From Achromobacter insolitus (GTDB taxonomy: Bacteria > Pseudomonadota > Gammaproteobacteria > Burkholderiales > Burkholderiaceae_B): a stretch of DNA of 64,000 bases. The position numbers were made by a program, and so were the translations under genes. The notes under the pieces are model-generated. The model was not told where the DNA came from and did no database searches. It saw only the letters and a program-made list of their open reading frames with translations. How positions within the stretch are numbered: the stretch's first letter is position 1; each line of letters starts with the position of its first letter. The stretch lies in contig NZ_NJIF01000009.1 in NCBI RefSeq assembly GCF_002209555.1, forward strand, positions 124,001-188,000. The letters run 5' to 3'. Shown in pieces: positions 1-24,878 of the stretch.

Positions 1-169
1 CGGGCTGGGTAGCGTGATAGGCGCGGTGGTGGGCGGCGTGGCGGTCGGCGTGATCCAGTCGCTGTCCTCGCTGGTACTGCCGATGCAACTTCAGAACCTG
101 GCGTTGTTCGCCATCTTCATCCTGGTGCTGGCCGTGCGCCCGGAAGGTCTTTTGAAAAGGGCGGGCTGA
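1..169 (+). CDS. livH: LivH-type branched-chain amino acid ABC permease, 3' end only
   Basis: The frame is open from the left edge and ends at TGA 167-169, giving about 55 residues. They form a hydrophobic glycine-rich helix, then a second helix and a short basic tail ending in RPEGLLKRAG. That is the usual C-terminus of LivH-type inner-membrane permeases, in which RPEGLF or a close variant follows the last helix. The stop overlaps the livM ATG (ATGA), so the two are translationally coupled. The family call rests on this tail and on the livM-livG-livF order that follows; the substrate cannot be read from the fragment. Confidence 0.8.
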   Translation, partial: GLGSVIGAVVGGVAVGVIQSLSSLVLPMQLQNLALFAIFILVLAVRPEGLLKRAG

Positions 170-1876: not shown

Positions 1877-2586
1877 GCCTGTTGCAGATCCAGGGGCTGA
1901 CCGCCGCCTACGACCGCAGTCCGGTGCTGCGCGACATCACGCTGGACGTGCCCGCAGGCGGCTTCATCGCCGTGGTCGGCGCCAACACGGCCGGCAAGAG
2001 CACGCTGCTGCGCTGCATCTCCGGCCTGCTGGACAAGGTCGGCGGCAGCGTCAAGTTCGACGGACAGGAGATCCTGCGCCTGCCCCCGCATCGCATCCCC
2101 GAACTGGGTATCGCCCACGTGCCGGAGGGTCGCCATGTCTTTCCGGAAATGACGGTCGAAGAGAATCTTTACCTGGGCGGTTATACCCGCCGCCGCGACA
2201 TGGCGGGGATCAAGCGCGGCTGCGACAGGATCTACGCGCTGTTCCCGCGGCTGCGCGAACGACGCCGCCAGCAGGCCGGCACGCTGTCGGGTGGCGAGCA
2301 GCAGATGGTGGCCTTTGGCCGCGCGCTGATGCTGGAACCCCGGCTGTTGCTGCTGGACGAGCCCAGCCATGGCCTGGCGCCCAAGATCGTCGAAGAAATG
2401 CACCAGGCGATGATAGACATCCATCGCAGCGGCCTGACCATATTGCTGGTGGAGCAGAACACGCGCCTGGCGCTATCGGTAGCGGAGTACGCCTACGTGC
2501 TCCAGTCGGGTTCCCTGGTGCTGTCCGGGCCCAGCGCCGAATTGCTGGAAGACAGCCGCGTGCGCGCGGCCTACCTCGGGCTGTAA
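1873..2586 (+). CDS. livF: LivF-type ABC transporter ATP-binding protein
   Basis: This 237-residue ATPase is the second nucleotide-binding subunit of the importer. I start it at ATG 1873, which overlaps the livG stop; an in-frame start at 1744 would give an N-terminus with no resemblance to the family. Walker A is GANTAGKST at residues 36-44, with Thr39 where nearly all LivF proteins have Gly; the GxxxxGK[ST] pattern still holds. The signature LSGGEQQ and Walker B LLLLDEPSHGL are canonical. It ends the transporter operon; the next gene begins 117 bases later with its own possible promoter. Confidence 0.9.
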   Translation: MSLLQIQGLTAAYDRSPVLRDITLDVPAGGFIAVVGANTAGKSTLLRCISGLLDKVGGSVKFDGQEILRLPPHRIPELGIAHVPEGRHVFPEMTVEENLYLGGYTRRRDMAGIKRGCDRIYALFPRLRERRRQQAGTLSGGEQQMVAFGRALMLEPRLLLLDEPSHGLAPKIVEEMHQAMIDIHRSGLTILLVEQNTRLALSVAEYAYVLQSGSLVLSGPSAELLEDSRVRAAYLGL

Positions 2587-2605
2587 CCATGGCCCGCCGA
2601 CGGGA

Positions 2606-2627
2606 TATATTGCGTCTTTACGTAGAC
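2606..2627 (+). promoter_or_regulatory. candidate promoter and inverted repeat upstream of the GntR gene
   Basis: The livF-gntR gap of 117 bases has a good -10 box, TATATT at 2606-2611, though no clear -35. It is followed by GTCT (2614-2617) and AGAC (2624-2627) facing each other across 6 bases. An operator just after a -10 would suit autorepression. The arms are only 4 bp, so this is a weak call. Confidence 0.3.
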
Positions 2628-2703
2628 ACGGCGGTTCGCCGCGGCGCGGCGATGAGCCGGCGCCAGCGCGCGGGCTTGCCGCCAGCATAAGCGAGAGACA
2701 GCC

Positions 2704-3447
2704 ATGGCCACCCCGACAGGCGCGGTATTCGAGAAACCCGGCACCCTGCGCACCCGCGTAGAGGAATTCCTGCGCACATCCATCATGGACGGGCGGATCA
2801 AGGGCGGGGAACGCCTGCGCGAACAGGAACTGTGCGATCAACTCAGCATCAGCCGCAGCACGCTGCGCGAGGCGCTGCGCACCCTGGAAGCCGAACGCCT
2901 GATTTCCATCGAGCCGCACCGTGGCCCCACGGTGGTGCGCATCACGGAAAAAGCCGCCCGCGACCTCTATGCGTTACGCGCCCTGCTTGAGGGCTTTGCC
3001 GCGCATGAATTCGCCAGGCTTGCGAGCGATGCCGACGTGGAGCGCCTGCGCAAGGCGGTCGACGCCCTGCACCGCCAGGCCAAGGGCAACAACAAATCGG
3101 CCCTGCTGGCCGCCAAGCGCGACTTCTACGACGTGTTGCTAAGCGGCTGTGACAACGACCTGATCAAGGACATGCTGCCGGGCTTGCTGTCGCGGATCAA
3201 TCTGCTGCGCGCCACCTCCTTCGCGCGCGCCGACCGGCTGCCGGAAAGCATGGCTGAAATCGACCTGATCTTCGAGCGCATCCGGGCTCGGGATCCGCAA
3301 GGCGCGCAAAGCGCGGCGCAAAGCCACATCGTGAACGCGGAACGCACTGCGCTCGAAGTGCTCAAGCGCCAGCAACAGGAGACATCCGACAGTGAAGGCG
3401 ATCGCCCAGAAACTAAAGGCCGGGGCAGCCCTGGCTCAGCAGGATAG
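2704..3447 (+). CDS. GntR-family (FadR/FCD subfamily) transcriptional regulator
   Basis: This 247-residue regulator has an N-terminal winged helix (about residues 12-78), with the recognition stretch SISRSTLREALRTLEAERLI. A helical FCD ligand domain follows (about 85-220), carrying the usual Asp, Arg and His residues that bind a metal and small carboxylates. It probably controls the adjacent hydrolase genes and perhaps the liv operon in response to a carboxylate. Its 3' end overlaps the next gene by 56 bases. That is unusually long and means the last 18 or so residues (rich in Ser, Gly, Glu) are encoded in DNA shared with the hydrolase start. A shorter hydrolase start is possible. Confidence 0.85.
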   Translation: MATPTGAVFEKPGTLRTRVEEFLRTSIMDGRIKGGERLREQELCDQLSISRSTLREALRTLEAERLISIEPHRGPTVVRITEKAARDLYALRALLEGFAAHEFARLASDADVERLRKAVDALHRQAKGNNKSALLAAKRDFYDVLLSGCDNDLIKDMLPGLLSRINLLRATSFARADRLPESMAEIDLIFERIRARDPQGAQSAAQSHIVNAERTALEVLKRQQQETSDSEGDRPETKGRGSPGSAG

Positions 3448-4624
3448 CGAATTCATCCTGGCCGCCCGCGGCCTGCCCTGCGCCATCTGGCTGCAGGCAG
3501 GGCCCGGGCCGGAGGAAAGAATAGCGGTCTGGGCCGGCCAACCCGCCGCCCCCTCGCAATGCATCGTCGTCAGCGCGCCGCCCGACACGTGGCAGAAGCT
3601 GCTCAACGACACCCCGCCCCCCGGCTACCACTCCTTTACCGCAGCCCGTCGCCAGGCGCAGGGCCTGCGCATCAGCGGCGATGCACTGGCCATCGCGCAG
3701 GCCCTGCATGCGCTGGAGCGGCTGTTCGAGATCCTTCGCGGCCAGCTCGCCGCGGCGCCCGAACTGCTGGACCGCAGCCCGATTTCCGGCGCCTACGCCA
3801 CGATAGACATCGGGCCTTCCCAGACCTCCCTCTACTATGAAACCAGCGGGCTCGACGCCGGGCCGCCGCTGTTGATGCTGCACACGGCCGGCGCGGACTC
3901 CCGCCAGTACCATGCACTGATGGCCGACCCCGGGTTGCGCGAGCAATGGCGCATGATCGCATTCGATATGCCTGGCCACGGACGCAGCATGCCGCTGCCC
4001 GGCCAGGCCTGGACCGAAGCCGGCCTCACCCGCGACGCCTATCTCCAGACCTGCCTGGCGGTGATCCGCCAGGTCGCGCGCGCGCCAGCGGCATTGCTGG
4101 GCTGTTCGATGGGCGCGGCGATGGCGCTGCTGGTCGCGGCGCGCAGCCCCGCCGACGTGACCGGCGTCGTCGCGCTGGAGGCGCCCTACAGGGCGGCCGG
4201 ACGCCGCACTCCCATGCTTTGCCATCCCCAGGTGAACCAGGCGGCGCACAACCCCGCCTACGTGCGCGGTCTGATGGGGCCAGCCGCCACCTTGCAGGCC
4301 CGCCGCGAAGCGGCCTGGATCTACTCGCAGGGCGGTTTCAACGTCTACGCCAACGATCTCTGGTTCTATAGCGAAGACTTCGACGCCGCCACGCACCTGG
4401 CTGGCCTGAACGCCGACGCCTTCGGCATATCGCTGCTGACCGGCGCGTACGACTATTCAGCCAGCCCCGAGGATTCCCGCCGGGTGGCCGCCCTGATTCC
4501 GGGTGCGCGCTTTCAGGCCATGCCGGACCTGGGACACTTCCCCATGGTAGAGAACCCTCGACGCCTGCTGGAGTATCTTCGGCCCGAACTGGACCACCTG
4601 CGCACAACCGGAGCCATCGCATGA
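3392..4624 (+). CDS. alpha/beta hydrolase with an SCP2-like N-terminal region
   Basis: At 410 residues this is about 130 longer than an ordinary alpha/beta hydrolase. The hydrolase fold occupies about 140-400, with nucleophile Ser239 in GCSMG, a likely acid at Asp354 and His382 in DLGHFP. Residues 40-120 (VWAGQP, then a WQKLL stretch, then LRISGDALAIAQALHALERL) have the pattern of an SCP2-type lipid or acyl-carrier binding domain; this is my reading by eye, not a search result. The start is GTG 3392, inside the 3' end of the GntR gene. Its end overlaps the next gene by 4 bases. The substrate is unknown; an ester, lactone or C-C bond is possible. Confidence 0.75.
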   Translation: MKAIAQKLKAGAALAQQDSEFILAARGLPCAIWLQAGPGPEERIAVWAGQPAAPSQCIVVSAPPDTWQKLLNDTPPPGYHSFTAARRQAQGLRISGDALAIAQALHALERLFEILRGQLAAAPELLDRSPISGAYATIDIGPSQTSLYYETSGLDAGPPLLMLHTAGADSRQYHALMADPGLREQWRMIAFDMPGHGRSMPLPGQAWTEAGLTRDAYLQTCLAVIRQVARAPAALLGCSMGAAMALLVAARSPADVTGVVALEAPYRAAGRRTPMLCHPQVNQAAHNPAYVRGLMGPAATLQARREAAWIYSQGGFNVYANDLWFYSEDFDAATHLAGLNADAFGISLLTGAYDYSASPEDSRRVAALIPGARFQAMPDLGHFPMVENPRRLLEYLRPELDHLRTTGAIA

Positions 4625-5424
4625 CGCTGCCCGATTATGAAATCTATGCCCTGCGCTACGCCACGGTGGCGCGCCGGAAAAACCAGAACTTCATCACCCC
4701 ACCGGATCCGCATGACGGCCCGATGCCGATGGACTATTTCGTCTGGGTCATACGCAACGGCACGCGCGTCTACCTCGTCGACACGGGATTCAACGAGGAC
4801 GCCGCCCGCGCGCGCGGCCGCGAGTTCCTGCGTTGCCCGATCGAGGCCCTGGCGAAACTGGGCATCTCGCCCGCCGACATCCGCGACGTCATCGTCACGC
4901 ATCTGCACTACGATCACGCCGGCAATATCCGCAAGCTGCCGCAGGCCCGGCTGCATATACAGGAAAGCGAACTGCACTATGCCTGCGGTTGCAACATGCG
5001 TTTCGACATGCTGCGCCACGCCTATGCCGTGGAGGACGTGATCGACGTGGTGCGAGGCGTCTATGACAAGCGAGTGGCCTTCTACCACGGCCATGACGAG
5101 ATCGCGCCCGGCCTGCAGCTGCTGCACATCGGCGGCCATACCCGCGGACTGCAGGCCGTGCGCGTGCACACCGCCCGCGGCTGGATGGTGCTGGCCTCGG
5201 ATGCCAGCCACTACTACGACAATATGGAACGGGACGCGCCCTTCCCCATCGTCGACAACGTGGCCGACATGCTGGCGGGCTACGAGATCTTGCTGAAATT
5301 CGCGGAATCTCCCGACCACATCGTGCCCGGACACGATCCGCTGGTCAGGATGCGATATCCCGCCCTGGCCGGCGCGGACACCGACGTGGTGGCGCTGCAC
5401 CTGGACAAGGGCGCCCGTTCCTGA
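4621..5424 (+). CDS. metallo-beta-lactamase-fold hydrolase, N-acyl-homoserine-lactonase-like
   Basis: This 267-residue cytoplasmic metalloenzyme carries the di-zinc motif HLHYDHAG (His94, His96, Asp98, His99). Further ligands are His in GGHT near residue 170, Asp in ASDASH, and His in PGHDP near the C-terminus. This set and the length match the AHL-lactonase-like branch, which opens lactones, although many members act on other esters or lactones. The start overlaps the preceding hydrolase stop (ATGA), so the two enzymes are made together and may act in sequence on one catabolite. A role in degrading signals is possible but the neighbours argue for catabolism. Confidence 0.8.
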   Translation: MTLPDYEIYALRYATVARRKNQNFITPPDPHDGPMPMDYFVWVIRNGTRVYLVDTGFNEDAARARGREFLRCPIEALAKLGISPADIRDVIVTHLHYDHAGNIRKLPQARLHIQESELHYACGCNMRFDMLRHAYAVEDVIDVVRGVYDKRVAFYHGHDEIAPGLQLLHIGGHTRGLQAVRVHTARGWMVLASDASHYYDNMERDAPFPIVDNVADMLAGYEILLKFAESPDHIVPGHDPLVRMRYPALAGADTDVVALHLDKGARS

Positions 5425-5445
5425 GAGCAGCGACGCTTTCCGGCG

Positions 5446-6444
5446 TCACATTCCCAACGGCCGGATCGCCTCGTCCACTTCCTCGGCCGACAGATCCTGC
5501 ACGATCAGGACCATGGCGCCTGCCTGCGCCGCGCCTTGCGGCACGGCGACCGGTTCGGGCGTGGCGAAGACATGCCGCACCCCGTGCACGGCGCGCAGGG
5601 TTCCATCCGTCCAGCGCAACAGGCCTTTGGCGCGCAGCAGGCGATCGCCGACCTGCCTCTGCATATGCCGGGTCCAGCGCGCGTAATCCTCCCAGCCCAC
5701 CGGACGGCCTTGCGGGTAGGCGTAGGACACGATGCCGTAGCGCAGCACGTGCGCGAGCGGACCCGCGACCGGCGGCGCGCCCACCTGCAGAATGGCCGCG
5801 TCCAGGTGTTCGGCGCGCAATCCATCGAACAGCGCCGGCGCGTCCTCGCCCACGGTATCGGGCGAAACCCGGCGGATTTCCGCGCTGGCGTTATAGCCGC
5901 GCAGCGTGGCCAGCAGCGTTTGGATGGTTGCCTCATCGGCCAGATCGACCTTGGTCAGCGCAATACGGTCGGCAATGGCGACCTGGGTGCTGGCTTCGCG
6001 GTATGCGTCCAGCGTGGAGGCGCCATGCAGCGCATCCGCCGTCGCCACCACGCCGCCGAAACGGTAATGACGGGCGATCAGCGGGTCTGCCGACAGCGTG
6101 TTGATCACCGGACAGGGGTCTGCCAAGCCGGATGTCTCCACCACGACGCGGGTGTATGGCGGAATCTCCCCTCGCTGGCGCCGGTAATAAAGCGATTCCA
6201 GCGTGTCCTGCAACGAACTGGTAGCCGCGCAACACAGGCAGCCCGAATCCAACAGCACCACGTCCGTGTCATCGGCCTTGCCCACCAGCATATGGTCAAG
6301 GCCGATCTCGCCGAACTCATTGATGACCACGGCCGTGTCGGCAAAGCGCGGGCTGCGCACCAGGCGGGACAACAGCGTGGTCTTGCCGCTGCCCAGGAAT
6401 CCCGTCAGCAGATAGACCGGCAATGGCTCGGCGGCAACCGGCAT
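5446..6444 (-). CDS. CobW/COG0523-family GTPase, putative metal chaperone
   Basis: This 332-residue protein has a P-loop GFLGSGKTT (residues 15-23), the metal-binding CLCC at 69-72, the ETSGLADP motif, and a C-terminal CobW_C-like region with a VRHVF stretch. The family uses GTP to deliver zinc, cobalt or iron to target enzymes. It is the last gene of the leftward operon, 8 bases after the cysteine hydrolase gene. The zinc-type amidohydrolase two genes upstream, or the metallo-beta-lactamase-like enzyme across the convergent gap, are natural clients. Nitrile hydratase activators and YjiA-like proteins are alternatives, but no nitrile hydratase is present. Confidence 0.85.
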   Translation of the reverse strand: MPVAAEPLPVYLLTGFLGSGKTTLLSRLVRSPRFADTAVVINEFGEIGLDHMLVGKADDTDVVLLDSGCLCCAATSSLQDTLESLYYRRQRGEIPPYTRVVVETSGLADPCPVINTLSADPLIARHYRFGGVVATADALHGASTLDAYREASTQVAIADRIALTKVDLADEATIQTLLATLRGYNASAEIRRVSPDTVGEDAPALFDGLRAEHLDAAILQVGAPPVAGPLAHVLRYGIVSYAYPQGRPVGWEDYARWTRHMQRQVGDRLLRAKGLLRWTDGTLRAVHGVRHVFATPEPVAVPQGAAQAGAMVLIVQDLSAEEVDEAIRPLGM

Positions 6445-6452
6445 GGCGTTGC

Positions 6453-7181
6453 TCAGCCCTGGTTGGCGGCGTCGGGCGCCGGCAGGTTGCGCAGGTAATC
6501 CTGCACTTCACGCGACGGAATCACGTCCGCGTACTTGCAATTAAGATCGAACAGGCTCATCGCATGGCTGGCCTGGAAGCGGTCGAACGCCGCCTCTTCG
6601 GGAATGATGACCTTGAAGTTGTACGAGTATGCGTCCACCGTCGTGGCCCGCAGGCATCCCGAGGATGTGCACCCCACCAGTATCAGCGTGTCCACATCCA
6701 GGAAGTTCAGGTGGCTCATGAAGATGGTGCCGAAGAAGCACGACGGCTTCTGCTTGGTGATGCGGATGTCCTGCGGACGCGGCGCCAGCGGCTCCACGGT
6801 CTGGGTGGCATGGGTGTTGGCCAGCACGGTCTTTTCGCCGCCACGGTGGTTCTTGCCCACCTGCACGCCGCTATCCAGCAAATCGGCGCGGCGGCCGCTT
6901 TCGGTGTAGAAAACAGGAATGTTCTTGTCGCGCGCCAGTTCCAGCAGCGGGACGATGTGCGCCACCGCGTCCCAGGCCTCGCGGCCGCAGTGGGTACGGT
7001 ACTGCTTCAGGCCTTCCAGGATGTCCTGGGGCGTATCGCCGCAGAAGTTGTATTGAACGTCGATGATGAACAGAGCCGGACGCTTGCCGAAGCCGCCGCG
7101 CTTGCCATAGCCGGCTTGCGCCAGGACCTGCTTGTCGCGCTCGGTCAGAAAGTCGTCCCAGATTCGCTTGGTTTCGCTCAT
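6453..7181 (-). CDS. isochorismatase-like cysteine hydrolase (amidase)
   Basis: At 242 residues this is a cysteine hydrolase of the isochorismatase superfamily. The triad can be placed: Asp41 in FIIDVQ, Lys in the KQKPSCF stretch, and Cys176 in GCTSSGCLRA. Relatives include N-carbamoylsarcosine amidase, maleamate amidase and ureidoacrylate amidase RutB, all of which remove ammonia or carbamate from a linear amide. Placement 33 bases after a ring-opening amidohydrolase gene suggests it cleaves that enzyme's linear amide or ureide product. The exact substrate is not determined by sequence. Confidence 0.85.
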   Translation of the reverse strand: MSETKRIWDDFLTERDKQVLAQAGYGKRGGFGKRPALFIIDVQYNFCGDTPQDILEGLKQYRTHCGREAWDAVAHIVPLLELARDKNIPVFYTESGRRADLLDSGVQVGKNHRGGEKTVLANTHATQTVEPLAPRPQDIRITKQKPSCFFGTIFMSHLNFLDVDTLILVGCTSSGCLRATTVDAYSYNFKVIIPEEAAFDRFQASHAMSLFDLNCKYADVIPSREVQDYLRNLPAPDAANQG

Positions 7182-7214
7182 GGTAATGCCTGCCAGAAAA
7201 AGAGTGGGTTCAGT

Positions 7215-8576
7215 TCAAAGACGCTTGAGGTAGCGGCCGCCAGGATTGCTGCGCGCCGCATCGGTGATGCGGCCGTCCAGTGCCACGGTGCGGCCGCGCA
7301 CCAAAGTGCGCACGGGCCAGCCCTTCAGGGTCATGCCCTCGTAGGGCGAATAATCGGAATTCGACTCCAGCGTGGCGGGATCGACAGTGCGCTCCAGGTC
7401 CGGGTCGACCAGCACCAGGTCGGCGTCCTTGCCGATCTCGATGCTGCCCTTGCCGGGCATGCGATAGATGCGCGCGGAGTTCTCGGCGGCAACCTTCATC
7501 AGGATTTCCAGCGGCACGCCGCGGCGGTGATAGCCCTCATGCAGCAGGATCGGCAACATCAGGCCGGTTCCCGGAAAGCCGTTGCTGGCGGCCCAGATGT
7601 CCGTATCCTTGGTGGCGCGCTTGCGCGGCACGTGGTCGGTACCTATGGTGGTGATGGACCCGTCCAGCACGCCTTCCCACATGGCGTCCACATCGCTTTG
7701 CCCACGCACCGGCGGGTTGACCTTGGCGTAGGTGCCGGCGGGCGACTCGTCGTTCAAAAACAGGTAGTGCGGGCAGGTCTCGACGTAGATGGGCGGTGCA
7801 TCCGCCGTACGGCGATGGCGCCGCGCCTCGTCCAGCGCTTCGCGGCTGCTCAGGTGCACGATATTGACCGCAGCGCCCGTCTTCGCCGCGAAATAGCAAA
7901 CGCGGTGCACGTTTTCGGCTTCCAGGAAGTCCGGGCTTTGTTCGTTCCAGGCCTTCAGATCGTCGCGGCCCGCCGCGCGTAGCGGATCCCTCAGCACCGG
8001 AATCACCTCGACGTTCTCGCAGTGCACCCCCATGATGGCGCCTGGAATCGCGGCGGTGGCGCGCAGCGCCGAATACAGCAGGCCGTCGTCGATATCCGTA
8101 AAGCCCTTGGACAGCCCCGCCGCGCCCTTGTACATCATGTAGAGCTTGTACGAATTCACGTTGAAGCGCCGCGAGATCTCCTCCAGCGTTTCCACGTGCA
8201 GATTGCTGGTGATGCCGAAGTGAAAGCCGAAGTCCACGCAGCTTTGCGACAAAGCGCGGTCGCGCACCTTTTCGAAGGAATCCCGGATGTCCGCCGAGCG
8301 ATGGAACGACAGTACGGTAGTGGTGCCGCCCAACGCAGCGAAGCGCGATTCCGTTTCGAAGTCCGTTTCGGGCGAGCCGAAGCCGAAATGCACGTGCGGA
8401 TCTATCAGCCCCGGCAGCACCCACAGCCCTTGGCAGTCTATGGTTTCGCGGGCCTCTAGTGGCGTGCCTGGCTCGGCAATGATCGCGATGCGGCCGTCAA
8501 TGACGCCGAGCACGCCTTCGGTCAGTCCCTGCTGCGGCAAATACAGTCTTGCATTGGTGAGTAACAGATCCAGCAT
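7215..8576 (-). CDS. hydantoinase/dihydroorotase-like amidohydrolase
   Basis: This 453-residue TIM-barrel metalloenzyme is of the dihydropyrimidinase/allantoinase/dihydroorotase group. The HxH metal motif is His61/His63 in DPHVHFG. The bridging, normally carbamylated, lysine is in NSYKLYM; further ligands are His in GVHCEN, His in VHLSS and the catalytic Asp in GTDHVP. The group hydrolyses cyclic amides and ureides. Genes on either side encode an aconitase paralogue and a cysteine amidase, a context unlike the pyrimidine, purine or allantoin pathways, so I give no symbol. Start ATG 8576 lies 30 bases after the aconitase stop. Confidence 0.85.
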   Translation of the reverse strand: MLDLLLTNARLYLPQQGLTEGVLGVIDGRIAIIAEPGTPLEARETIDCQGLWVLPGLIDPHVHFGFGSPETDFETESRFAALGGTTTVLSFHRSADIRDSFEKVRDRALSQSCVDFGFHFGITSNLHVETLEEISRRFNVNSYKLYMMYKGAAGLSKGFTDIDDGLLYSALRATAAIPGAIMGVHCENVEVIPVLRDPLRAAGRDDLKAWNEQSPDFLEAENVHRVCYFAAKTGAAVNIVHLSSREALDEARRHRRTADAPPIYVETCPHYLFLNDESPAGTYAKVNPPVRGQSDVDAMWEGVLDGSITTIGTDHVPRKRATKDTDIWAASNGFPGTGLMLPILLHEGYHRRGVPLEILMKVAAENSARIYRMPGKGSIEIGKDADLVLVDPDLERTVDPATLESNSDYSPYEGMTLKGWPVRTLVRGRTVALDGRITDAARSNPGGRYLKRL

Positions 8577-8606
8577 AATGTCTTGTTTCCTGAGTAATGC
8601 GTTTTT

Positions 8607-11297
<2,691 letters not shown>

Positions 11298-11349
11298 GGC
11301 AGCGGTAATAAGGAAAATCTCAACTGAGGCCATCTTACGGCTTACAAAA

Positions 11350-11369
11350 CAATAGTGTCAACACTATTG
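11350..11369. promoter_or_regulatory. 20-bp palindromic operator, left site
   Basis: The site has two perfect 9-bp arms (CAATAGTGT and ACACTATTG) around a 2-base centre. Read on the minus strand the centre contains TTGACA, a consensus -35 for the aconitase operon; TAAGAT at 11332-11337 (minus) is a possible -10 with a long 19-base spacer. The core GTGTTGACA recurs twice near the divergent GntR gene, so this is very likely that regulator's site and would block the promoter. Confidence 0.75.
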
Positions 11370-11549
11370 CCAGGACCGCCAGAGGCTTCATATGGCAAGA
11401 ATACAGATTACCGCCACCGCATTGAAAGTGTAGATAGATGGGTGCGCCCTATAGCGCTAGGGAATACCCCGATAACCGTCTGTAAAATAGACAAAATATC
11501 CATGCAACTGCCCGCAGGCAGGCATCCGGACCCAAACAATGTCACCTTC

Positions 11550-11567
11550 AAAAGAGTTGACACTTTT
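11550..11567. promoter_or_regulatory. operator copy 2 over the gntR -35 box
   Basis: AAAAGAGT and ACACTTTT face each other across TG, one mismatch from a perfect palindrome and sharing the GTTGACAC core of the left site. TTGACA at 11557-11562 is a consensus -35 for the rightward operon. The best -10 is weak, GATAGG at 11579-11584 with a 16-base spacer, which would start the transcript within about 5 bases of the gntR ATG. Confidence 0.65.
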
Positions 11568-11585
11568 AAGATCCCTTTGATAGGC

Positions 11586-11597
11586 TGTCAACACTAT
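11586..11597. promoter_or_regulatory. operator copy 3 overlapping the gntR start codon
   Basis: TGTCAACACTAT is identical over 12 bases to part of the palindrome at 11350-11369 and runs into the ATG at 11596. It looks like a third, one-and-a-half-arm site. Repeats at a promoter and at the start codon are typical of autoregulation. Confidence 0.55.
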
Positions 11598-12318
11598 GAA
11601 CACCGCCACGACCTCCATCGCCACCAAGGAAGACGCCTCCGGCCCCCTGGCCGACGTGGTGTTCGACCAGGTGCTGGATGCGATCTACCAAGGCCGGCTG
11701 GCCCCAGGTAGCGTCATTAATGAAGTCGCGCTGGCACAAGAATTCGGCGTCAGCCGCGGCCCGGTGCGGGAGGCCGTGCGCCGCCTGCAGGGCATCCAGC
11801 TCATCACGCGCGAGCCCTACATCAAGGCGCGCGTGGTGACCCTCTCGGCGGAATCCGCGCTGGAACTCTTCCAGATGCGCATGGCGCTGGAAGGCGTCGC
11901 CTGCAATCTGGCCACCCGCCGCATGAGCGACGAGGAAATCGCGCAGTTGCTGGTCGAGCTGGAACAGGACCGCCAGCGCCGCCTGGACGCGTCCAATGGC
12001 GGCTCGCCCGCGCCGCGTGTCTTCGACTTCCACGAACGCATCGTGCGGGCCAGCGGCAACAACCGCATCATCAACGCCCTTTGCGGCGACCTCTATCACC
12101 TGCTGCGCGTCTATCGCCGGCACTCCGGCACCGTGCTGGAGCGCAAGGACGACGCCTACGCCGAGCACTGGCAGATCCTGCGCGCCATCCGCGCGCGCGA
12201 CGCCGAGCTGGCGGAATCGCTCATGCGCTCGCACATCGAACGCGCGGCGCAACATCTTTTTGATCATCTGGCGGAAGGGGCGTCCGGCATTGCCGGACAC
12301 CCAGTCTCGGCCGCCTAA
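11596..12318 (+). CDS. GntR-family (FCD) regulator of the aconitase/lyase divergon
   Basis: This 240-residue regulator has a winged helix at about residues 20-85 (AQEFGVSRGPVREAVRRL) and an FCD effector domain at about 95-225, including DFHERIVRASGNNRI and the helix with RSHIE. FCD domains bind small di- and tricarboxylates, often with a metal, which fits the tricarboxylate-type enzymes around it. It is transcribed divergently from the aconitase operon and starts the rightward operon. Repeats of one operator word lie at both promoters and at its own start. The next gene's ATG is 22 bases after its stop. Confidence 0.88.
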   Translation: MNTATTSIATKEDASGPLADVVFDQVLDAIYQGRLAPGSVINEVALAQEFGVSRGPVREAVRRLQGIQLITREPYIKARVVTLSAESALELFQMRMALEGVACNLATRRMSDEEIAQLLVELEQDRQRRLDASNGGSPAPRVFDFHERIVRASGNNRIINALCGDLYHLLRVYRRHSGTVLERKDDAYAEHWQILRAIRARDAELAESLMRSHIERAAQHLFDHLAEGASGIAGHPVSAA

Positions 12319-12339
12319 CGCCCTTTGGAGCAGTACGAC

Positions 12340-13236
12340 ATGAACAACCCGCGCCACCAGTTCCGGCATTTGCTGAAGAACGAACCCTTCATCGTCTCGC
12401 CCGGTGTGTACGATGGATACAGCATCCGCCTGGTCGAAGCCGCGGGTTTCAAAACCGCCTGCACCAGCGGCGCGGCCGTGTCGAACGCGCTGCTGGGCAT
12501 CGCCGACATCGGCGTGATGGGCCTGTCGGAGAACGTGACCCATTGCCGCCACCTGGCGCGTTCGGTCTCCATCCCGCTCACGGCCGATGCCGACACCGGC
12601 TACGGCAATCCCGTGAACGTCTATCACACGGTACAGATGTTCGAGGAAGCCGGCGTCGCCGGCATCAACCTCGAAGACCAGGTCAGCCCCAAACGCTGCG
12701 GCCACATGCCTGGCAAGGATGTGGTGAGCGAAGCTGAAATGGTCAAGAAGATCGAGGCCGCCTGCCTGGCGCGACGCGACGATGACTTCGTCATCATTGC
12801 CCGCACGGACTCGCTGGCCATCGAAGGCATCGAAGGAGCGGTCAAGCGCGCCCGCGCATACGCCCGGGCCGGCGCCGACATGCTGTTTCCCGACGCGGTC
12901 CGCACCGAGGACGACATCAAGCGCCTGGTCGACGCCGCCGGCATTCCCGTCAGCATCAACATGGGCTTCGGCATCCGCAACCGTCCGACCACGCCGCTGA
13001 TTCCGCTGCCGCGCCTGAAGGAAATCGGCGTCAAGCGTATCAGCCTGCCGCGCATGCTTCCCGCCGCCGCCATACATGGCATGCGCGAGGCGCTGCAGGT
13101 GATGCAGGGCGTGATCGCCAGTGGCGTGCCCGCGGACCGCCCCGACCTGCTGGTGGGCATCGAAGACATCATGCAATTGATGGGCTACGAGCAGATGCGC
13201 GCCATGGAAAAACGCCTGACGACCCTGGCCGACTGA
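12340..13236 (+). CDS. isocitrate lyase/PEP mutase-family C-C lyase
   Basis: This 298-residue protein is of the ICL/PEPM superfamily. I use ATG 12340, which has GGAG 9 bases upstream, rather than the in-frame TTG at 12325. Metal ligands Asp83 and Asp85 sit in DADTGYG. The mobile catalytic loop reads KRCGHMPG (residues 118-125) with the catalytic Cys120, which marks a lyase rather than a phosphonate mutase. Relatives are methylisocitrate lyase, 2,3-dimethylmalate lyase and oxaloacetate decarboxylase. Next to an aconitase-family hydratase it could cleave the hydrated product to pyruvate or glyoxylate plus another acid, as PrpB does after the methylcitrate hydratase. The substrate is not known. 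Confidence 0.85.
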   Translation: MNNPRHQFRHLLKNEPFIVSPGVYDGYSIRLVEAAGFKTACTSGAAVSNALLGIADIGVMGLSENVTHCRHLARSVSIPLTADADTGYGNPVNVYHTVQMFEEAGVAGINLEDQVSPKRCGHMPGKDVVSEAEMVKKIEAACLARRDDDFVIIARTDSLAIEGIEGAVKRARAYARAGADMLFPDAVRTEDDIKRLVDAAGIPVSINMGFGIRNRPTTPLIPLPRLKEIGVKRISLPRMLPAAAIHGMREALQVMQGVIASGVPADRPDLLVGIEDIMQLMGYEQMRAMEKRLTTLAD

Positions 13237-13246
13237 GCGTACTGTC

Positions 13247-13966
13247 ATGACTGAGCGGAATGCGCAGGCGCATTGCGTCCTGACAGGCTCGTCCTCGGGC
13301 ATCGGACTGGCGTTGGCGGAAAGCCTGCTGGCATCTGGCTGGCAGGTGACCGGCGTGGACATCGCTCCCGCCGCCATCCACGGACACGCGCAGTATCGCC
13401 ACCTCGATTGCGACCTGGCCGATGACCGCGCCTTGCATGACCTGGGCGCCCAGCTGCAAGACTGCGCCCCAACCGCGCTGGCGCATTGCGCCGGCGTGGT
13501 CCGCACCGGCGGCGCGCTGGACACACGCCCGGAAGACGCGGACCTTCTGTGGAAGCTTCATGGAGCCGCGCCGATGGCGCTTGCGCGCGTCTTGGCTCCC
13601 CAATTGCCCGACAGGCGCGGCCGCATCGTACTGGTGTCCAGCCGCGCCGTGCTGGGGCGCGCACACCGTCTCGCCTATGCCGCGACGAAATCGGCGCAGA
13701 TCGGGCTGGCGCGCAGCCTGGCGGCCGAGCTCATCGGCCGCGGCATTACCGTCAACGTGGTCGCGCCCGGCGCAGTCGATACGCCCATGCTGCACGATCC
13801 CAAGCGCGGCGCGCCGCCACGGGTGGACCTGCCGCTGGGGCGCCTGATCGACGCTCGCGAAGTCGCGGCAACCATCGCCTTCTTCCTCGGCGAGCAGGCC
13901 GGCGCCATCACCGGGCAGACACTTTACGTCTGTGGCGGCGCTTCGCTGGGAACGGTGCCGCTATGA
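13247..13966 (+). CDS. short-chain dehydrogenase/reductase, first of pair
   Basis: This 239-residue NAD(P)-dependent Rossmann enzyme has cofactor motif TGSSSGIG (residues 13-20) and catalytic Tyr144 and Lys148 in YAATK, with Ser in LVSSRA about 14 residues earlier. The segment after the core strand reads AHCAG rather than the usual NNAG. It starts 10 bases after the lyase gene and its stop overlaps the next SDR (ATGA), so both are in the operon. It probably oxidises a hydroxy acid or alcohol intermediate; the substrate cannot be read. Confidence 0.85.
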   Translation: MTERNAQAHCVLTGSSSGIGLALAESLLASGWQVTGVDIAPAAIHGHAQYRHLDCDLADDRALHDLGAQLQDCAPTALAHCAGVVRTGGALDTRPEDADLLWKLHGAAPMALARVLAPQLPDRRGRIVLVSSRAVLGRAHRLAYAATKSAQIGLARSLAAELIGRGITVNVVAPGAVDTPMLHDPKRGAPPRVDLPLGRLIDAREVAATIAFFLGEQAGAITGQTLYVCGGASLGTVPL

Positions 13967-14733
13967 CGACGGACATCACCGCATTGCACGGCAAGACAGT
14001 AATCGTGACCGGCGCCGCCGGCGGGCTAGGCCAGGCAATCGCGGCGCACTGCCTGCGCGCCGGCGCCCGCGTGGCCCTGCTGGACCGGGACCCGGCGCTG
14101 CTCGCGCAATGCGGCCAGACATTGGATCCGACGGGCGCCCGCGTATTGACGCTGGCTTGCGACGTGAGCAACCCGGACGACGCTCGCGACGCCATCGAAA
14201 AAACAGCAGCGCATTGGGGCTCCATGCACGCGCTGGTGAACAACGCCGCCGTCGCCACGCCGGGCAACAAAGTCGCGGACCTGACCCTGGAGCAGTGGCG
14301 CCAGGCCCTGGACGTGAACCTGACCGGCGCATGGCTGATGAGCAAATACGCCATCCCCCACATGACGCGCGCAGGTGGCGGCGTGGTGCTGAACATCGCG
14401 TCACAACTGGGCAGCGTGGCCGCGCCGGGCCGCGGCGCCTATGGCGCCAGCAAGGCTGGCCTGATTGCGCTGGCGCGTGCCATCGCAGTGGACCACGCGG
14501 CCGACGGCATCCGCGCCTTGAGCCTGTCTCCCGGCGCGGTACTGACAGGCAGGCTGGTCGCGCGCTACGGCAGCGCCCAGGCCGCGGCAGCCACACTGGC
14601 GCCCAAGTATCCGGCGGGGCGCCTGGGCACCGTCGACGAAATCGCGCAGACGGCAATTTTCCTGATCAGCGATGCCGCCTCGTTCATTACGGGCACGGAC
14701 ATACGCGCGGACGGCGGATACACCGCGCTGTAA
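13963..14733 (+). CDS. short-chain dehydrogenase/reductase, second of pair
   Basis: This 256-residue SDR starts at ATG 13963, overlapping the previous stop; the longer in-frame opening from 13486 is a shadow of the first SDR. It has TGAAGGLG (16-23), NNAAVA, catalytic Tyr160 and Lys164 in YGASK, and the terminal ADGGYTAL common to FabG-like enzymes. The two SDRs are clearly different proteins, so they probably act on different steps or enantiomers, not as a recent duplication. The next gene follows after 59 bases. Confidence 0.87.
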   Translation: MTTDITALHGKTVIVTGAAGGLGQAIAAHCLRAGARVALLDRDPALLAQCGQTLDPTGARVLTLACDVSNPDDARDAIEKTAAHWGSMHALVNNAAVATPGNKVADLTLEQWRQALDVNLTGAWLMSKYAIPHMTRAGGGVVLNIASQLGSVAAPGRGAYGASKAGLIALARAIAVDHAADGIRALSLSPGAVLTGRLVARYGSAQAAAATLAPKYPAGRLGTVDEIAQTAIFLISDAASFITGTDIRADGGYTAL

Positions 14734-14792
14734 AGCAGCGGCCACCGCTACCCACTTCACGCAAGGCTTACATCACACAAGGGGCTTGAACC

Positions 14793-15821
14793 ATGAAGTA
14801 CACGACTACCTCCGCAACACACGGGCGCCCCGCGCGACCCGCCATCCGCCGCACGCTGCTGGCGCTCGTCGCCGGCGCTGTCGGCCTGGCCGCCGCGCCA
14901 GCCTTTGCGCAAGGTGTGGACAATTTCCCCAACCGCGCCGTCACCATCGTCGTGCCCTTCCCTGCGGGCGGCGCCACTGACATCACCGCGCGCCTGGTCG
15001 CGGAAGGCCTCTCCAAGAAGTGGGGACAACCGGTAGTCGTCGAGAACAAGCCCGGCGCTGGCGGCAACGTCGGTTCGGAATACGTGGCGCGCGCCGCGCC
15101 GGACGGCTACACCCTGGTGCTGGGCGTGACGGGCTCGCACGGCATCAACACCTCGCTTTACAAGAACATGCGCTATGACCCCGTCAAGGATTTCGAGGCC
15201 ATCACGCAAGCCACGCTTTATCCGAATGCCATCATCGTCAACAACGACGTGCCGGCCAACAACCTGCAGGAGCTTATCGCCCTGCTGAAGAAGCCCGACG
15301 CCCATTACTCATATGGTTCGGACGGCAACGGCACGGCGTCGCACCTGGGCATGGAACTGATCAAGAACCAAGGCAAGTTCGAGATCTCGCACATTCCTTA
15401 CCGTGGCAGCTCGCCGATGGTGACCGACCTGCTGGGCGGCCAGATCCAGGTGGGCATCACTGGCCTGCCCGCTGTCCAGGCGTATGCCAAGAGCGGCAAA
15501 CTGAAGATCGTGGCGCTGACCACGGGCGAACGCTTTGCCAGCGCGCCCGACTATCCCACGGTGGCCGAGCAGGGCTTCCCTGGCTATGCCGCGCCGCCAT
15601 GGTCGGGCTTTTTCGCCCCTAAGGGCACGCCCAAGCCGCTGGTGGAGAAAATCTCGGCTGACATGCGCGACGTCATGGCCGATCCGAAGACGAAGGAAAA
15701 GCTCGCCGCCTCCGGCAGCGAGTTCACGCCTTCCACGCCTGAACAGTTCCAGGCCTTCGTGCAGCAGGAAATCGCGAAGTGGGCGCAGGCCGTCAAGATC
15801 TCCGGCGCGCGCATCGACTAA
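14793..15821 (+). CDS. Bug-family periplasmic solute-binding protein
   Basis: This 342-residue protein has a signal peptide (basic start, hydrophobic stretch, cleavage near AFAQ around residue 40). A TctC/Bug fold follows, with the hallmark VTIVVPFPAGGATD, the ENKPGAGGNVG loop, and GLP then PTVAEQGF toward the C-terminus. Bug proteins bind carboxylates in a Venus-flytrap pocket, often for tripartite tricarboxylate transporters. No TctA/TctB membrane partners are here. As the last gene of the divergon it probably binds the pathway's carboxylate, either for uptake or sensing. Confidence 0.88.
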   Translation: MKYTTTSATHGRPARPAIRRTLLALVAGAVGLAAAPAFAQGVDNFPNRAVTIVVPFPAGGATDITARLVAEGLSKKWGQPVVVENKPGAGGNVGSEYVARAAPDGYTLVLGVTGSHGINTSLYKNMRYDPVKDFEAITQATLYPNAIIVNNDVPANNLQELIALLKKPDAHYSYGSDGNGTASHLGMELIKNQGKFEISHIPYRGSSPMVTDLLGGQIQVGITGLPAVQAYAKSGKLKIVALTTGERFASAPDYPTVAEQGFPGYAAPPWSGFFAPKGTPKPLVEKISADMRDVMADPKTKEKLAASGSEFTPSTPEQFQAFVQQEIAKWAQAVKISGARID

Positions 15822-15837
15822 GCGTCAAATGCGACAA

Positions 15838-15863
15838 GCCGGCGCCGCGGCTGCGGCGCCGGC
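15838..15863. terminator. strong GC hairpin between convergent genes
   Basis: GCCGGCGCCGC pairs perfectly with GCGGCGCCGGC (11 bp) across a 4-base loop, between the Bug gene and the convergent receptor gene. There is no U-tract on either strand, so termination may be weak or Rho-assisted. Confidence 0.5.
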
Positions 15864-15873
15864 GCGCTGTCCC

Positions 15874-18129
15874 TCAGTTGTAGCGGAACGTGGCGGTCAG
15901 CATCGCCGAACGGCCAGGCGCCACGTAGCTGAACAAGCCCACATGCGACGCCTCGTAGATGGTTTCGTCGGTCAGGTTGTTCAGGTTCAGCTGCAGGCCG
16001 AAGTTCTTGTTGAACTGATAAGCCGCCATCGCGTCGTAGCGCCAATAGGACGGCAACTGGTAGACGTTGGCATCATCCACGTAGCGCTTGCCCGTGTAGG
16101 TGGCGCCCGCTCCCACCGTCAGTTCGGGCATGAACTTGTAGGTAGTCCACAGGCTGGCGCTCTGGCGCGCGATGAATTTCATCTGCTTGCCGCTGTAGTC
16201 GGTGCCGCCGCTCTGGTAGTTGGTGACCTTCGGATCCATGTAGCTGTACCCGCCCCACACCTGCCACTTGGGCGTGATGGATCCCGCCGCGCCCAGTTCA
16301 ATGCCGCGCACCCGGTTGCTGCCTGACAACGTCACGTCGCCCGTGATGGGATCGGAGCTGCGGGCGTCGGTCTTGCGGGTTTCGAATACGGCAGCCGTCA
16401 AGGACAGGCGCTCGTCAAACACGTCCCATTTGGTGCCGACTTCGATGCTGCGGCTCTTCTCGGGCGCCAATGCCGCGGTACCCGCGGTCAGGCGGCCGCC
16501 TGCCGCGCCATCCGCTCCGCCGGACTGGCCCGCCGTTTCGCCGGAGGGATTGGACGAAGTGCCGTAGGACACATAGATGCTGCCGTTGGGTGCGGGCTTA
16601 TAGACCAGGCCCAACTGGTAGTTCCACATATTGTCGGTGCGCTCGACATTGCCGCTGGTCACACGGTAGTTGTCATAGCGCAGGCCGGCATTGGCTTCCC
16701 ATTGCTCGCTGAACTTGACCGTGTCGAACACGTAAGCAGCGCGCGTGATGGTCTTGGCAGCGTCGTAACGCGGCCCCCAACTGAGGCTTCCGGTATGCGG
16801 TTGATGCGGGTTCGGGTTGTACAGATCGTCCAGCAGGGTCTTGTCGAAACCGCCCGCAGGCACGCCGTCGCGCTTGCTGATCGTCTCGGTGCTGAACTCC
16901 AGGCCGGCCACATAGCTGTGCCGCAGGCCGCCCGCAGTGAACTCGCCGAACATGTCGGTCTGATTGATGAAGGACCGATTGGTCTGGTTCAGGCTGCGCA
17001 GGGCCTTGCTCATTCGCACGCCCTCCGCCTCGTTCGAGCATGGCGCCACGCCGTAGGCGGGGTTGGGCCGGCCGCCCACGCGCGCCGCGCAATTGTCGAA
17101 GGACGGGCGTGTCATCACATATTCGTTGGTCGATTCGCTGTAGCGCGTGCCGTTACGCAGCTTCAACTTGTCGCTGAACTTGTGCTCGACCATCAAGGTG
17201 GTCATGTCGGCCTGGTTCTTGCGGTAGTCGCGTCCGATGAGGCCGTAGTAATTGTCGCGGTCCACCTTGGGCGGGGTGACGCGGCCAGGGCGCGATTCAT
17301 TCTTGAACGGAATGCCCAGGTCCGGCGTGTCGTCATTCTGCAGGTGGTAGTAGCTGAGGGTCACCTGCGTGGGCGTGCCCAGGCCCCAGGAGAACGAGGG
17401 TGCGACGCCCCAGCGGTCGGTTTCGACGTGATCGCGGCCCGGGATGTCGCCGCCCTGCTTCATGAAATTCAGGCGGAAGGCCGAACTTTCCCCCAAGGCC
17501 CAGTTGCCGTCGCCCGTCAGCCGCCAGTTGTCGTCGGTGCCCACACCGACCGTGCCTTCCGCGAAATTCTCGAGCTTGGGGCTCTTGCTGACCAGGTTGA
17601 TGCTGCCGCCGGTCGAACCGCGGCCTGAATAGGCGGAGCTCGGCCCCTTCAGGATTTCGACCGACTCCAGGTTGAAGGTTTCGTGCGAGAAGCGGCCCAG
17701 GTCGCGCATACCGTCGACCATCATGTCGGTGCTGGCCTCGTAGCCGCGCACGAATGGCCGGTCGCCAGTGGGTGTTCCGCCTTCGCCTGCGCCGAAAGTG
17801 ATGCCCGGCGCGGTGCGCAGCACGTCCATCAGTGACGTGGCCGCGCGATCGCGCATCAGTTGTTCCGTGATCACCGTGACCGAACGCGGCGTATCCAGCA
17901 GCGGCGCCGTCATTTTCGGGGAGGAAGCGATGTTGGCTTCGTAGCCATCGCTGACTGCCTGCCCCTGCACGTGGACGGGCGACAATTCGTGCACGGCGCC
18001 GGGCGCCAGGCTTCCTTGGGCCAGCGCCAGGCCCGGCGACACCAGTGCGCCGCATACCGCCGCATAAATGGACGCCGTAGTGTTGCCACCGGCCTTGGCA
18101 TAGGCCGTCGATCGATCTGCTTTGCTCAT
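15874..18129 (-). CDS. TonB-dependent siderophore receptor
   Basis: This 751-residue outer-membrane receptor has an N-terminal signal-like segment (about residues 15-40) with a TonB-box-like stretch near 50-60. A plug domain follows (about 70-190: DTPRSVTVITEQLM, then VDGMRDLGRF), then a 22-strand barrel ending in ATFRYN. It belongs to the ferric siderophore group (FhuA/FpvA-like); the ligand is unknown. It is monocistronic, convergent with the catabolic operon. An AT-rich upstream region with a candidate Fur box supports iron repression. No siderophore synthesis or FecI/FecR genes are near. Confidence 0.9.
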   Translation of the reverse strand: MSKADRSTAYAKAGGNTTASIYAAVCGALVSPGLALAQGSLAPGAVHELSPVHVQGQAVSDGYEANIASSPKMTAPLLDTPRSVTVITEQLMRDRAATSLMDVLRTAPGITFGAGEGGTPTGDRPFVRGYEASTDMMVDGMRDLGRFSHETFNLESVEILKGPSSAYSGRGSTGGSINLVSKSPKLENFAEGTVGVGTDDNWRLTGDGNWALGESSAFRLNFMKQGGDIPGRDHVETDRWGVAPSFSWGLGTPTQVTLSYYHLQNDDTPDLGIPFKNESRPGRVTPPKVDRDNYYGLIGRDYRKNQADMTTLMVEHKFSDKLKLRNGTRYSESTNEYVMTRPSFDNCAARVGGRPNPAYGVAPCSNEAEGVRMSKALRSLNQTNRSFINQTDMFGEFTAGGLRHSYVAGLEFSTETISKRDGVPAGGFDKTLLDDLYNPNPHQPHTGSLSWGPRYDAAKTITRAAYVFDTVKFSEQWEANAGLRYDNYRVTSGNVERTDNMWNYQLGLVYKPAPNGSIYVSYGTSSNPSGETAGQSGGADGAAGGRLTAGTAALAPEKSRSIEVGTKWDVFDERLSLTAAVFETRKTDARSSDPITGDVTLSGSNRVRGIELGAAGSITPKWQVWGGYSYMDPKVTNYQSGGTDYSGKQMKFIARQSASLWTTYKFMPELTVGAGATYTGKRYVDDANVYQLPSYWRYDAMAAYQFNKNFGLQLNLNNLTDETIYEASHVGLFSYVAPGRSAMLTATFRYN

Positions 18130-24797: not shown

Positions 24798-24878
24798 GAT
24801 TGTCTCCATCCTGCGGCTCGCCTCGTTCCGGGGAGCTCGCTGGCAAGGATCATCTGCCAGCCCATCATTCCAGTCCAA

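Follow-up and report, generated by a model that had tools for sequence, protein, structure and literature searches.

A conserved divergent regulon of Achromobacter insolitus with a proposed role in cyclic imide breakdown

Cyclic imides are reportedly catabolised in Blastobacter by an imidase and a half-amidase, and anaerobic nicotinate fermentation combines enamidase chemistry with a two-subunit dimethylmaleate hydratase and a dimethylmalate lyase. Here we analyse a locus of Achromobacter insolitus, found in a 64,000-nucleotide stretch of contig NZ_NJIF01000009.1 (hereafter the window), in which related enzyme types meet in one divergent regulon (5446-15821). Genes for an aconitase paralogue (ACN), a hydantoinase-like amidohydrolase (HYD), an isochorismatase-like hydrolase (ISC) and a CobW protein run leftward; those for a GntR regulator, a lyase of the isocitrate lyase family (ICL), two short-chain dehydrogenases (SDR1 and SDR2) and a Bug receptor run rightward. 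The locus is a real, conserved, co-regulated unit. We propose with moderate confidence, on the strength of sequence comparison, that it degrades a substituted maleimide, a five-membered cyclic imide bearing a carboxylate, or else a hydroxylactam from which the SDRs would form this imide by oxidation.

The logic of a cyclic imidase paired with an amidase has been described for fungal nicotinate breakdown, where the enzymes are HxnM and HxnN and a polyol-dehydrogenase-type enzyme makes the imide first (PMC9304392). The proposed route shares with it an imide-opening hydrolase, an amidase that frees ammonia and a carboxylic acid that goes on. However, the relatives given for HxnM are PgdA/PuuE-type proteins, a family other than that of HYD, and the excerpts of that paper mention neither an aconitase-like hydratase nor an ICL-family lyase (PMC9304392). 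A D-hydantoinase with cyclic-imide-hydrolysing activity figures in the reference list of PMC9863593. The 2-methylcitrate cycle, in which an aconitase-family enzyme (AcnD/AcnB) is followed by the PrpB lyase to give a 2-oxo acid and a dicarboxylate, resembles the last two proposed steps, but ACN scores far below the AcnD cut-off (721.8 bits of 1419.85), ICL is below that of PrpB and has changed residues, and a PrpC gene was found at no locus here (an E. coli PrpC query matched only itself across the loci, E 1e-12). This lack of PrpC in all loci examined led us to reject the methylcitrate cycle. A pathway with this gene set was not found among the matches listed from the open-licence PubMed Central (PMC) literature, and the model that wrote the earlier note on this DNA knew of none. 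The regulon would unite, across some fifty species, five genes usually named after better-known relatives (aconitate hydratase, isocitrate/methylisocitrate lyase, dihydroorotase/dihydropyrimidinase, isochorismatase and CobW) in a single role open to testing, and its DNA operator lets it be read in new genomes.

Conservation and regulation of the locus

The gene calls, with families assigned by Pfam and NCBIfam, bear out the genes, families and tight divergent packing reported in the earlier note. The leftward genes are separated by 30, 33 and 8 bp, the SDR1 and SDR2 genes overlap, and the divergent gap (11334-11595) measures 262 bp. The boundary formerly drawn at 6453 leaves out CobW, although this gene lies in the same run, 8 bp from ISC.

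Genome contigs were scanned with HYD, and the best 80 of 156 relatives yielded 78 distinct loci, 55 with a HYD at about 50% identity or more and 23 with a HYD at only 30-35%. Identity thresholds were chosen by eye after a first comparison of the loci (HYD 50%, ISC 60%, ACN 50%, GntR 44%, ICL 45%), and loci at contig edges were kept in the denominators of 55. All five core genes (HYD, ISC, ACN, ICL and GntR) occur together in 45 of the 55 closest loci, the individual counts being 54 for HYD, 54 for ISC, 51 for ACN, 51 for GntR and 49 for ICL; locus L085 is scored HYD-less merely for being just below 50%. By contrast, ACN is absent from all 23 distant loci, and ISC-like and ICL-like genes occur together in one of them (L101), which argues that the grouping is beyond chance. 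The 55 loci span Alcaligenaceae, a Comamonadaceae metagenome-assembled genome (MAG), Azospirillum, Bosea, Methylobacterium-type MAGs, Gluconacetobacter, Roseovarius, Maritimibacter and Nitratireductor, and the gene set, which extends to Alphaproteobacteria of sea and soil, is also carried by plasmids of Shinella and Antarctobacter. The closest named loci, in Achromobacter xylosoxidans and A. anxifer, have a 98% identical HYD.

In an independent sample of the family, HYD is found at 69% identity or more in 28 of 200 genomes, and ACN adjoins it in 27 of these, the remaining one lying at a contig edge. Outside the family the cluster is rare, with a close HYD in 2 of 300 genomes of the order, A. 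insolitus included (2 more have relatives at 40-42%), and an ISC relative at 1e-45 in 1 of 398 genomes of the phylum, that of A. insolitus itself. Within the genus, four of the genomes listed carry the cluster, again including this one, and the other seven do not. As far as sequence can show, the genes co-occur widely outside this strain, the reverse of what the earlier note had said would count against its proposal.

One palindrome, WAASTGTYRACASTTW, is found at all three sites of the gap; 46 sites upstream of ACN, 28 of them distinct, served to build the motif. Of 57 loci, two had no scored ACN and two lay at contig edges; in the 53 others, the motif reaches 13 bits or more upstream of ACN 50 times. 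This count is partly circular, because 46 of those loci also supplied the training sites. When 4000 stretches were drawn at random from the same loci, with the true sites left in, 192 scored as high. The core TGTTGACA or TGTCAACA is visible by eye in most loci in a listing free of model and alignment, and shuffled sequence yields, at a 10-bit threshold, 0.13 sites per 20 kb. In the A. insolitus genome the strict pattern has a single perfect match, operator site 1 of this gap. Allowing one mismatch gives 4 places (2 in this gap) as against 6 for the reversed control, so that only the perfect match is informative.

In relatives, the motif also stands before flavin adenine dinucleotide (FAD) protein/SDR1 genes in L079, L081 and L084 (before SDR1 in the first two), before Bug in L045, L053 and L085, before a pair formed by a luciferase-like monooxygenase (LLM) and SDR1 in L119, before a flavin mononucleotide (FMN)-reductase-like gene in L060 and L067, before a TctA-like gene and an old-yellow-enzyme-type reductase in L066, and before the ICL-ISC start of a divergent M. 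nodulans cluster, L126. (FMN reductase and TctA were named by eye from sequence, as were IclR regulators other than that of L124 and a racemase in L116, mentioned below.) L068, L113, L120, L124, L125, L139-L142 and L156-L158 yielded no site of 10 bits.

The GntR protein is the predicted regulator acting through this palindrome. A promoter match facing ACN has as its first hexamer the TTGACA of operator site 1 (one match versus a shuffle mean of 0.5, which is weak on its own), and because the operator core thus doubles as a -35-like hexamer, GntR likely acts by simple repression. Since the promoter match overlaps the ATG at 11333, the true start of ACN is probably the next methionine, Met13, at 11297. 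The shared operator sites of the earlier note are thus real, three in number and placed between the two arms, and its idea of one gene set under one regulator, which different inducers for the two arms would have contradicted, gains support from the fact that both arms leave from a single set of sites conserved across two classes.

Enzymes, proposed reactions and competing explanations

The two hydrolases have intact catalytic residues. HYD keeps its metal ligands H61, H63, K144, H185 and H241 in 58 of 58 sequences and D314 in 57 of 58, and is below the cut-off of every NCBIfam model among the best 25 of 59 matched, including the dihydropyrimidinase, allantoinase and hydantoinase groups (best scores over cut-offs, 269.7/647, 266.9/357.85 and 262.1/393.25). 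ISC has D41, K143 and C176 in 57 of 57 sequences, which we take to be the catalytic triad of the isochorismatase family and which align with the Asp, Lys and Cys of the solved structures 26st, 4l07 and 1nba. It thus shares fold family and triad with the N-carbamoylsarcosine and maleamate amidases, but it reaches at most 117.4 bits against solved members by single sequence and passes no NCBIfam equivalog cut-off. Its nearest solved relative is the N-carbamoylsarcosine amidohydrolase 26st (117.4 bits by single sequence, 134.6 by profile), followed by 4l07 in the single-sequence search and by 1nba in the profile search; 4l07, presumably a maleamate amidase, scores 85.2 and 101.1 bits, respectively. 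We propose that HYD is an imidase and ISC a half-amidase. CobW, a probable metal chaperone for HYD, is present at 40% identity or more in 35 of the 55 loci, the 20 others being 19 loci of Alphaproteobacteria and L064, a Burkholderiales contig that ends inside ISC.

ACN is 48.5% identical to E. coli AcnA and 44.9% identical to the AcnA of its own genome, and it keeps the cluster cysteines C438, C504 and C507 as well as S784 and R785 in all ungapped sequences of 57. At positions invariant among human IRP1, E. coli AcnA and the genome's own AcnA, the clade nevertheless carries Q86P, F88S and T89S (53 of 53), N509K (54 of 54) and P544K/R (52 of 54); in aconitase, Gln86 presumably contacts the substrate. 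These clade-wide changes, and the several other aconitase-family genes of the genome, led us to reject a plain duplicate of the tricarboxylic acid cycle aconitase.

ICL has the phosphoenolpyruvate (PEP)-mutase/ICL fold and the KRCGH motif bearing the catalytic Cys, as do PrpB, 2,3-dimethylmalate lyase and the petal death protein, but falls short of the PrpB equivalog (239.4 bits of a 354.4 cut-off). Compared with three PrpBs, it shows Tyr43 replaced by Cys or Ala (51 of 52), R126M (52 of 52), E188D and T212G (51 of 52 each) and an inserted Arg-x-Arg (R213, R215; 51 of 52) that the PrpBs lack. The one ICL without the insert belongs to L068 (a MAG, 7158-9978), which is also the sole core locus with LeuC/LeuD-type subunits in the place of ACN, so that lyase and hydratase differ together. 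The clade-wide changes near active-site motifs and the gain of basic residues indicate that ACN and ICL are not housekeeping enzymes. Given the added positive charges and the lost tyrosine, we read the changes as a likely fit to a substrate larger and more acidic than methylisocitrate, whose extra carboxylate the new basic residues could hold.

In the proposed pathway, the substrate would be taken up with the assistance of Bug, a Bug/TctC receptor whose ligand is probably a carboxylate, and SDR1 and SDR2 would set its oxidation state. HYD, perhaps metallated with the help of CobW, would convert the imide into a half-amide, from which ISC would release ammonia and a substituted maleate (an analogue of cis-aconitate); ACN would hydrate the maleate to a substituted malate (an analogue of isocitrate or methylisocitrate), and ICL would split this into a 2-oxo acid and a carboxylic acid, both entering central metabolism. 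We infer every one of these reactions, as well as the substrate class and the inducer. The accessory genes vary: SDR1 is present in 30 of the 55 loci, SDR2 in 18, a TcuA/flavocytochrome-c-like FAD protein in 22 (none having both it and SDR2) and Bug, at 50% identity or more, in 28.

Enzyme swaps in relatives support this order of steps. HYD and ISC are the constant parts; ACN, present in most loci, gives way to LeuC/LeuD in L068 and in the archaeal L125, and apparently to MmgE/PrpD in the M. nodulans cluster L126 and in paralogous clusters (CobW-HYD-ISC) found in Alcaligenaceae and Variovorax. In L125 the lyase is swapped as well, for a CaiB-type CoA-transferase and an enzyme of the 3-hydroxy-3-methylglutaryl-CoA (HMG-CoA) lyase family (281.5 bits, cut-off 246), which would be a CoA version of the ICL bond cleavage. 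L125 (Haloferax lucentense plasmid, 1-16266) holds PrpD twice, a Liv-type importer, an FAD protein and an NTF2-like protein and, in a row, an LLM, ISC, HYD, the CoA-transferase, the HMG-CoA-lyase family member, LeuC and LeuD. L126 comprises ICL, ISC, PrpD, FAD, PrpD and HYD, and no aconitase gene was found in the 20.7 kb covered. The paralogous clusters L112-L117 and L124, probably a sister imide pathway, combine CobW with a HYD at 43-47% and an ISC at 40-42% identity, and most of them also have MmgE/PrpD, an FAD protein and a transport system of the Liv or Bug type; the annotation of L124 includes an IclR regulator. The swaps point to the sequence imide, half-amide, substituted maleate, substituted malate and cleavage, so that the earlier note's order (ring opening, deamidation, hydration, cleavage) draws support from the neighbouring genes and from L068, L125 and L126.

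As to the substrate, for which the earlier note listed imides, lactams and ureides, the residue changes of ACN and ICL and a core without an aminotransferase or deaminase favour a cyclic imide giving a polycarboxylic substituted maleate and disfavour a ureide or a simple lactam. If a ureide were degraded, HYD would open a substituted hydantoin or dihydropyrimidine and ISC would decarbamoylate the product to an amino acid, leaving ACN and ICL to take a later, separately made acid. That HYD belongs to the hydantoinase/allantoinase group, that 26st outranks 4l07 as a relative of ISC, and that one paralogous cluster, L116, contains an Asp/Glu/hydantoin-racemase-like gene all speak for this account. 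We nonetheless consider it unlikely: the core is devoid of an aminotransferase, an amino-acid oxidase and an ammonia-lyase, ACN and ICL accompany HYD and ISC in 45 of the 55 loci, and another hydratase replaces ACN in some relatives (L068, L125 and apparently L126). A division of labour under one regulator, in which HYD, ISC and CobW would scavenge imide nitrogen while ACN and ICL dealt with some separate tricarboxylate, for instance an analogue of methylcitrate, is quite unlikely in our estimate. Genes in one run need not encode linked reactions, and paralogous CobW-HYD-ISC clusters without ACN do exist; but a methylcitrate synthase gene is missing from every locus examined, the ACN-HYD-ISC-CobW run is tight, and the clusters devoid of ACN (L068, L112-L116, L123-L126) contain PrpD-like, LeuCD-like or ICL-like genes, none being found in L117.

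Citrazinate (a tautomer of 2,6-dihydroxyisonicotinate) is degraded via cis-aconitamide to cis-aconitate. Were this six-membered imide the substrate, the cis-aconitate would pass through isocitrate to glyoxylate and succinate, a direct account of an aconitase together with an isocitrate-lyase relative. We judge this decidedly improbable, in that the subunits of one xanthine-dehydrogenase-type enzyme of Sulfitobacter match nothing in the 55 loci save for a 2Fe-2S-like match in L046, ACN and ICL are altered at residues that the compared aconitases and PrpBs retain, and the genome already has other aconitase-family genes. No paper was found in the open-licence PMC literature with citrazinic acid together with cis-aconitamide, and citrazinic acid is in none among the matches listed of a further search there. 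Least probable of all, and hardly to be expected, is a route of the nicotinate-fermentation type, in which an enamidase would open the ring to a formyl acid and the sequence would end in dimethylmaleate hydration and cleavage. The earlier note had named that fermentation as the nearest in logic. The likeness holds for the last two reaction types, a substituted maleate being hydrated and then cleaved, and fails elsewhere: ACN is of the AcnA type instead of a two-subunit hydratase, an imidase and an amidase are proposed where the fermentation has an enamidase, and no other genes of that route were recognised here.

The five-membered imide proposal has its own difficulties besides the rank of 26st. 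ACN still scores above the AcnA cut-off (1056.3 versus 945) and may act on plain aconitate; the clade-specific residues of ACN and ICL owe their placement to sequence alignment; the structure model of ISC (predicted local distance difference test score, pLDDT, 51.3) is too poor for use; and no operator site of at least 13 bits precedes ACN in L064, L065 and L086.

A possible tetrapyrrole origin of the imide

In several genomes, hemC and hemL-like genes adjoin the cluster, which raises the possibility, in our view a rather doubtful one, that the regulon forms the lower half of a route by which tetrapyrrole building blocks or fragments are destroyed, the imide deriving from porphobilinogen or another tetrapyrrole pyrrole. 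If true, this would be a bacterial route from pyrrole or haem fragments to central metabolites. With the fullest gene sets, a hemL-like enzyme would transaminate an aminomethyl-pyrrole such as porphobilinogen, an aldehyde dehydrogenase and an HspB-like FAD monooxygenase (plus a further oxygenase) would carry the oxidation to 3-carboxymethyl-4-carboxyethyl-maleimide, and HYD, ISC, ACN and ICL would turn that maleimide into 2-oxoglutarate and succinate. A close hemL-like aminotransferase was not found in Achromobacter, where degradation would begin at the stage of the imide or hydroxylactam; hematinic acid derived from weathered haem or chlorophyll is one candidate. This carboxylated maleimide is an oxidation product of haem, bilirubin and chlorophyll and is cited from urine and senescent leaves, according to excerpts of PMC10343206. 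Bacterial porphobilinogen breakdown appears in none among the matches listed, as excerpted, from the open-licence PMC literature.

The neighbourhood evidence for porphobilinogen is suggestive and partly contradicted. Among the 55 loci, 10 have the aldehyde dehydrogenase, 11 the FAD monooxygenase (closest to PnpA 6ain and HspB 7da9) and 10 an arylmalonate-decarboxylase-like protein, often accompanied by an ABC (ATP-binding cassette) importer. On the Shinella plasmid, these upper-pathway genes continue the run of ISC, and the last gene of that run encodes a hemL-like class III aminotransferase, which scores 323.4 bits against a hemL cut-off of 527.3; hemC comes next, on the opposite strand. hemC lies at most 15 kb from HYD in 7 of 27 genomes, 5 of which form one Bosea-type lineage, leaving three lineages, and the hemL-like gene does so in 8 of 28. 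In Chachezhania, another contig carries the same upper genes, and there hemC is 4.6 kb away from the aminotransferase. The new basic residues of ACN and ICL, which might bind an additional carboxylate, also favour a tetrapyrrole origin.

Against the tetrapyrrole origin, no operator copy was found in the upper-operon stretches (L139, L141 and L156-L158); the cluster-side hemC is the only one found in genomes G863, G869 and G870 (Bosea-type) and G884 (Chachezhania), and may therefore be the housekeeping copy; and the hemC of Shinella resembles Rhodobacterales plasmid copies, one of which (L174) lies in a photosynthesis gene cluster. The catalytic Asp and cofactor Cys of HemC, which we take to be Asp84 and Cys242 in E. 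coli numbering, are kept in 14 of 15 aligned copies, SJ757_2 having Asn and Val. Divergent HemC paralogues adjoin catabolic genes in L139 (12198-13118), L060 (3823-4752) and L141 (8426-9526); that of L139 has neither the catalytic Asp nor the cofactor Cys, and the Bosea copies lack the GGKGLF motif. In the human enzyme this Asp and this Cys are Asp99 and Cys261 (PMC7907807, in excerpt).

Three further observations concern these gene neighbourhoods. A protein of about 180 residues is encoded near upper-pathway genes (L156 14736-15278, L157 5682-6275, L118 near 9316), and that of L156 matches no Pfam family and, within the 1e-20 limit, no NCBIfam family. On a Haematobacter plasmid (L173 3688-8927), hemC ends a methylamine-dehydrogenase-like gene run. 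On a Sulfitobacter plasmid (L176 7968-16810), hemE and hemC share their neighbourhood with CobW, an amidohydrolase, an M81 peptidase, a TRAP (tripartite ATP-independent periplasmic) importer and an FAD oxidoreductase.

Features of the locus and neighbouring genes

Table 1. Genes and operator sites of the divergent regulon (window coordinates)
Feature	Position	Strand	Evidence or remark
CobW-family GTPase	5446..6444	-	Pfam cobW 7.1e-38 and CobW_C
ISC, isochorismatase-family cysteine hydrolase	6453..7181	-	Pfam 5.5e-26
HYD, hydantoinase/allantoinase-group cyclic amidohydrolase	7215..8576	-	Pfam Amidohydro_1
ACN, AcnA-type hydratase paralogue	8607..11333	-	NCBIfam TIGR01341, 1056.3 bits (cut-off 945)
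Operator site 1, ATAGTGTCAACACTAT	11352..11367	.	before ACN; 23.3 bits; overlaps -35-like hexamer
Operator site 2, AAAGAGTTGACACTTT	11551..11566	.	before gntR; 17.5 bits
Operator site 3, AGGCTGTCAACACTAT	11582..11597	.	overlaps gntR start; 13.6 bits
GntR/FCD regulator	11596..12318	+	Pfam GntR and FCD
ICL, PrpB/PEP-mutase/ICL-family lyase	12325 or 12340-13236	+	ATG at 12340
SDR1, short-chain dehydrogenase	13247..13966	+	Pfam
SDR2, short-chain dehydrogenase	13963..14733	+	Pfam adh_short_C2, 1.2e-61
Bug/TctC periplasmic receptor	14793..15821	+	Pfam TctC 5e-73

The genes on either side were rejected as members, since both the group at 2704-5424 (GntR0, an alpha/beta hydrolase and a metallo-beta-lactamase (MBL)-fold hydrolase) and the TonB receptor at 15874-18129 adjoin the cluster only in some Achromobacter loci. 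The stretch 169-5424, with a Liv-type ABC importer (named by eye), the second GntR, the alpha/beta hydrolase and the MBL-fold hydrolase, forms a separate unit. Farther along the window, at 22306-24878, a sulfatase-family gene adjoins a Bug-like receptor (by eye) and makes another candidate small catabolic unit.

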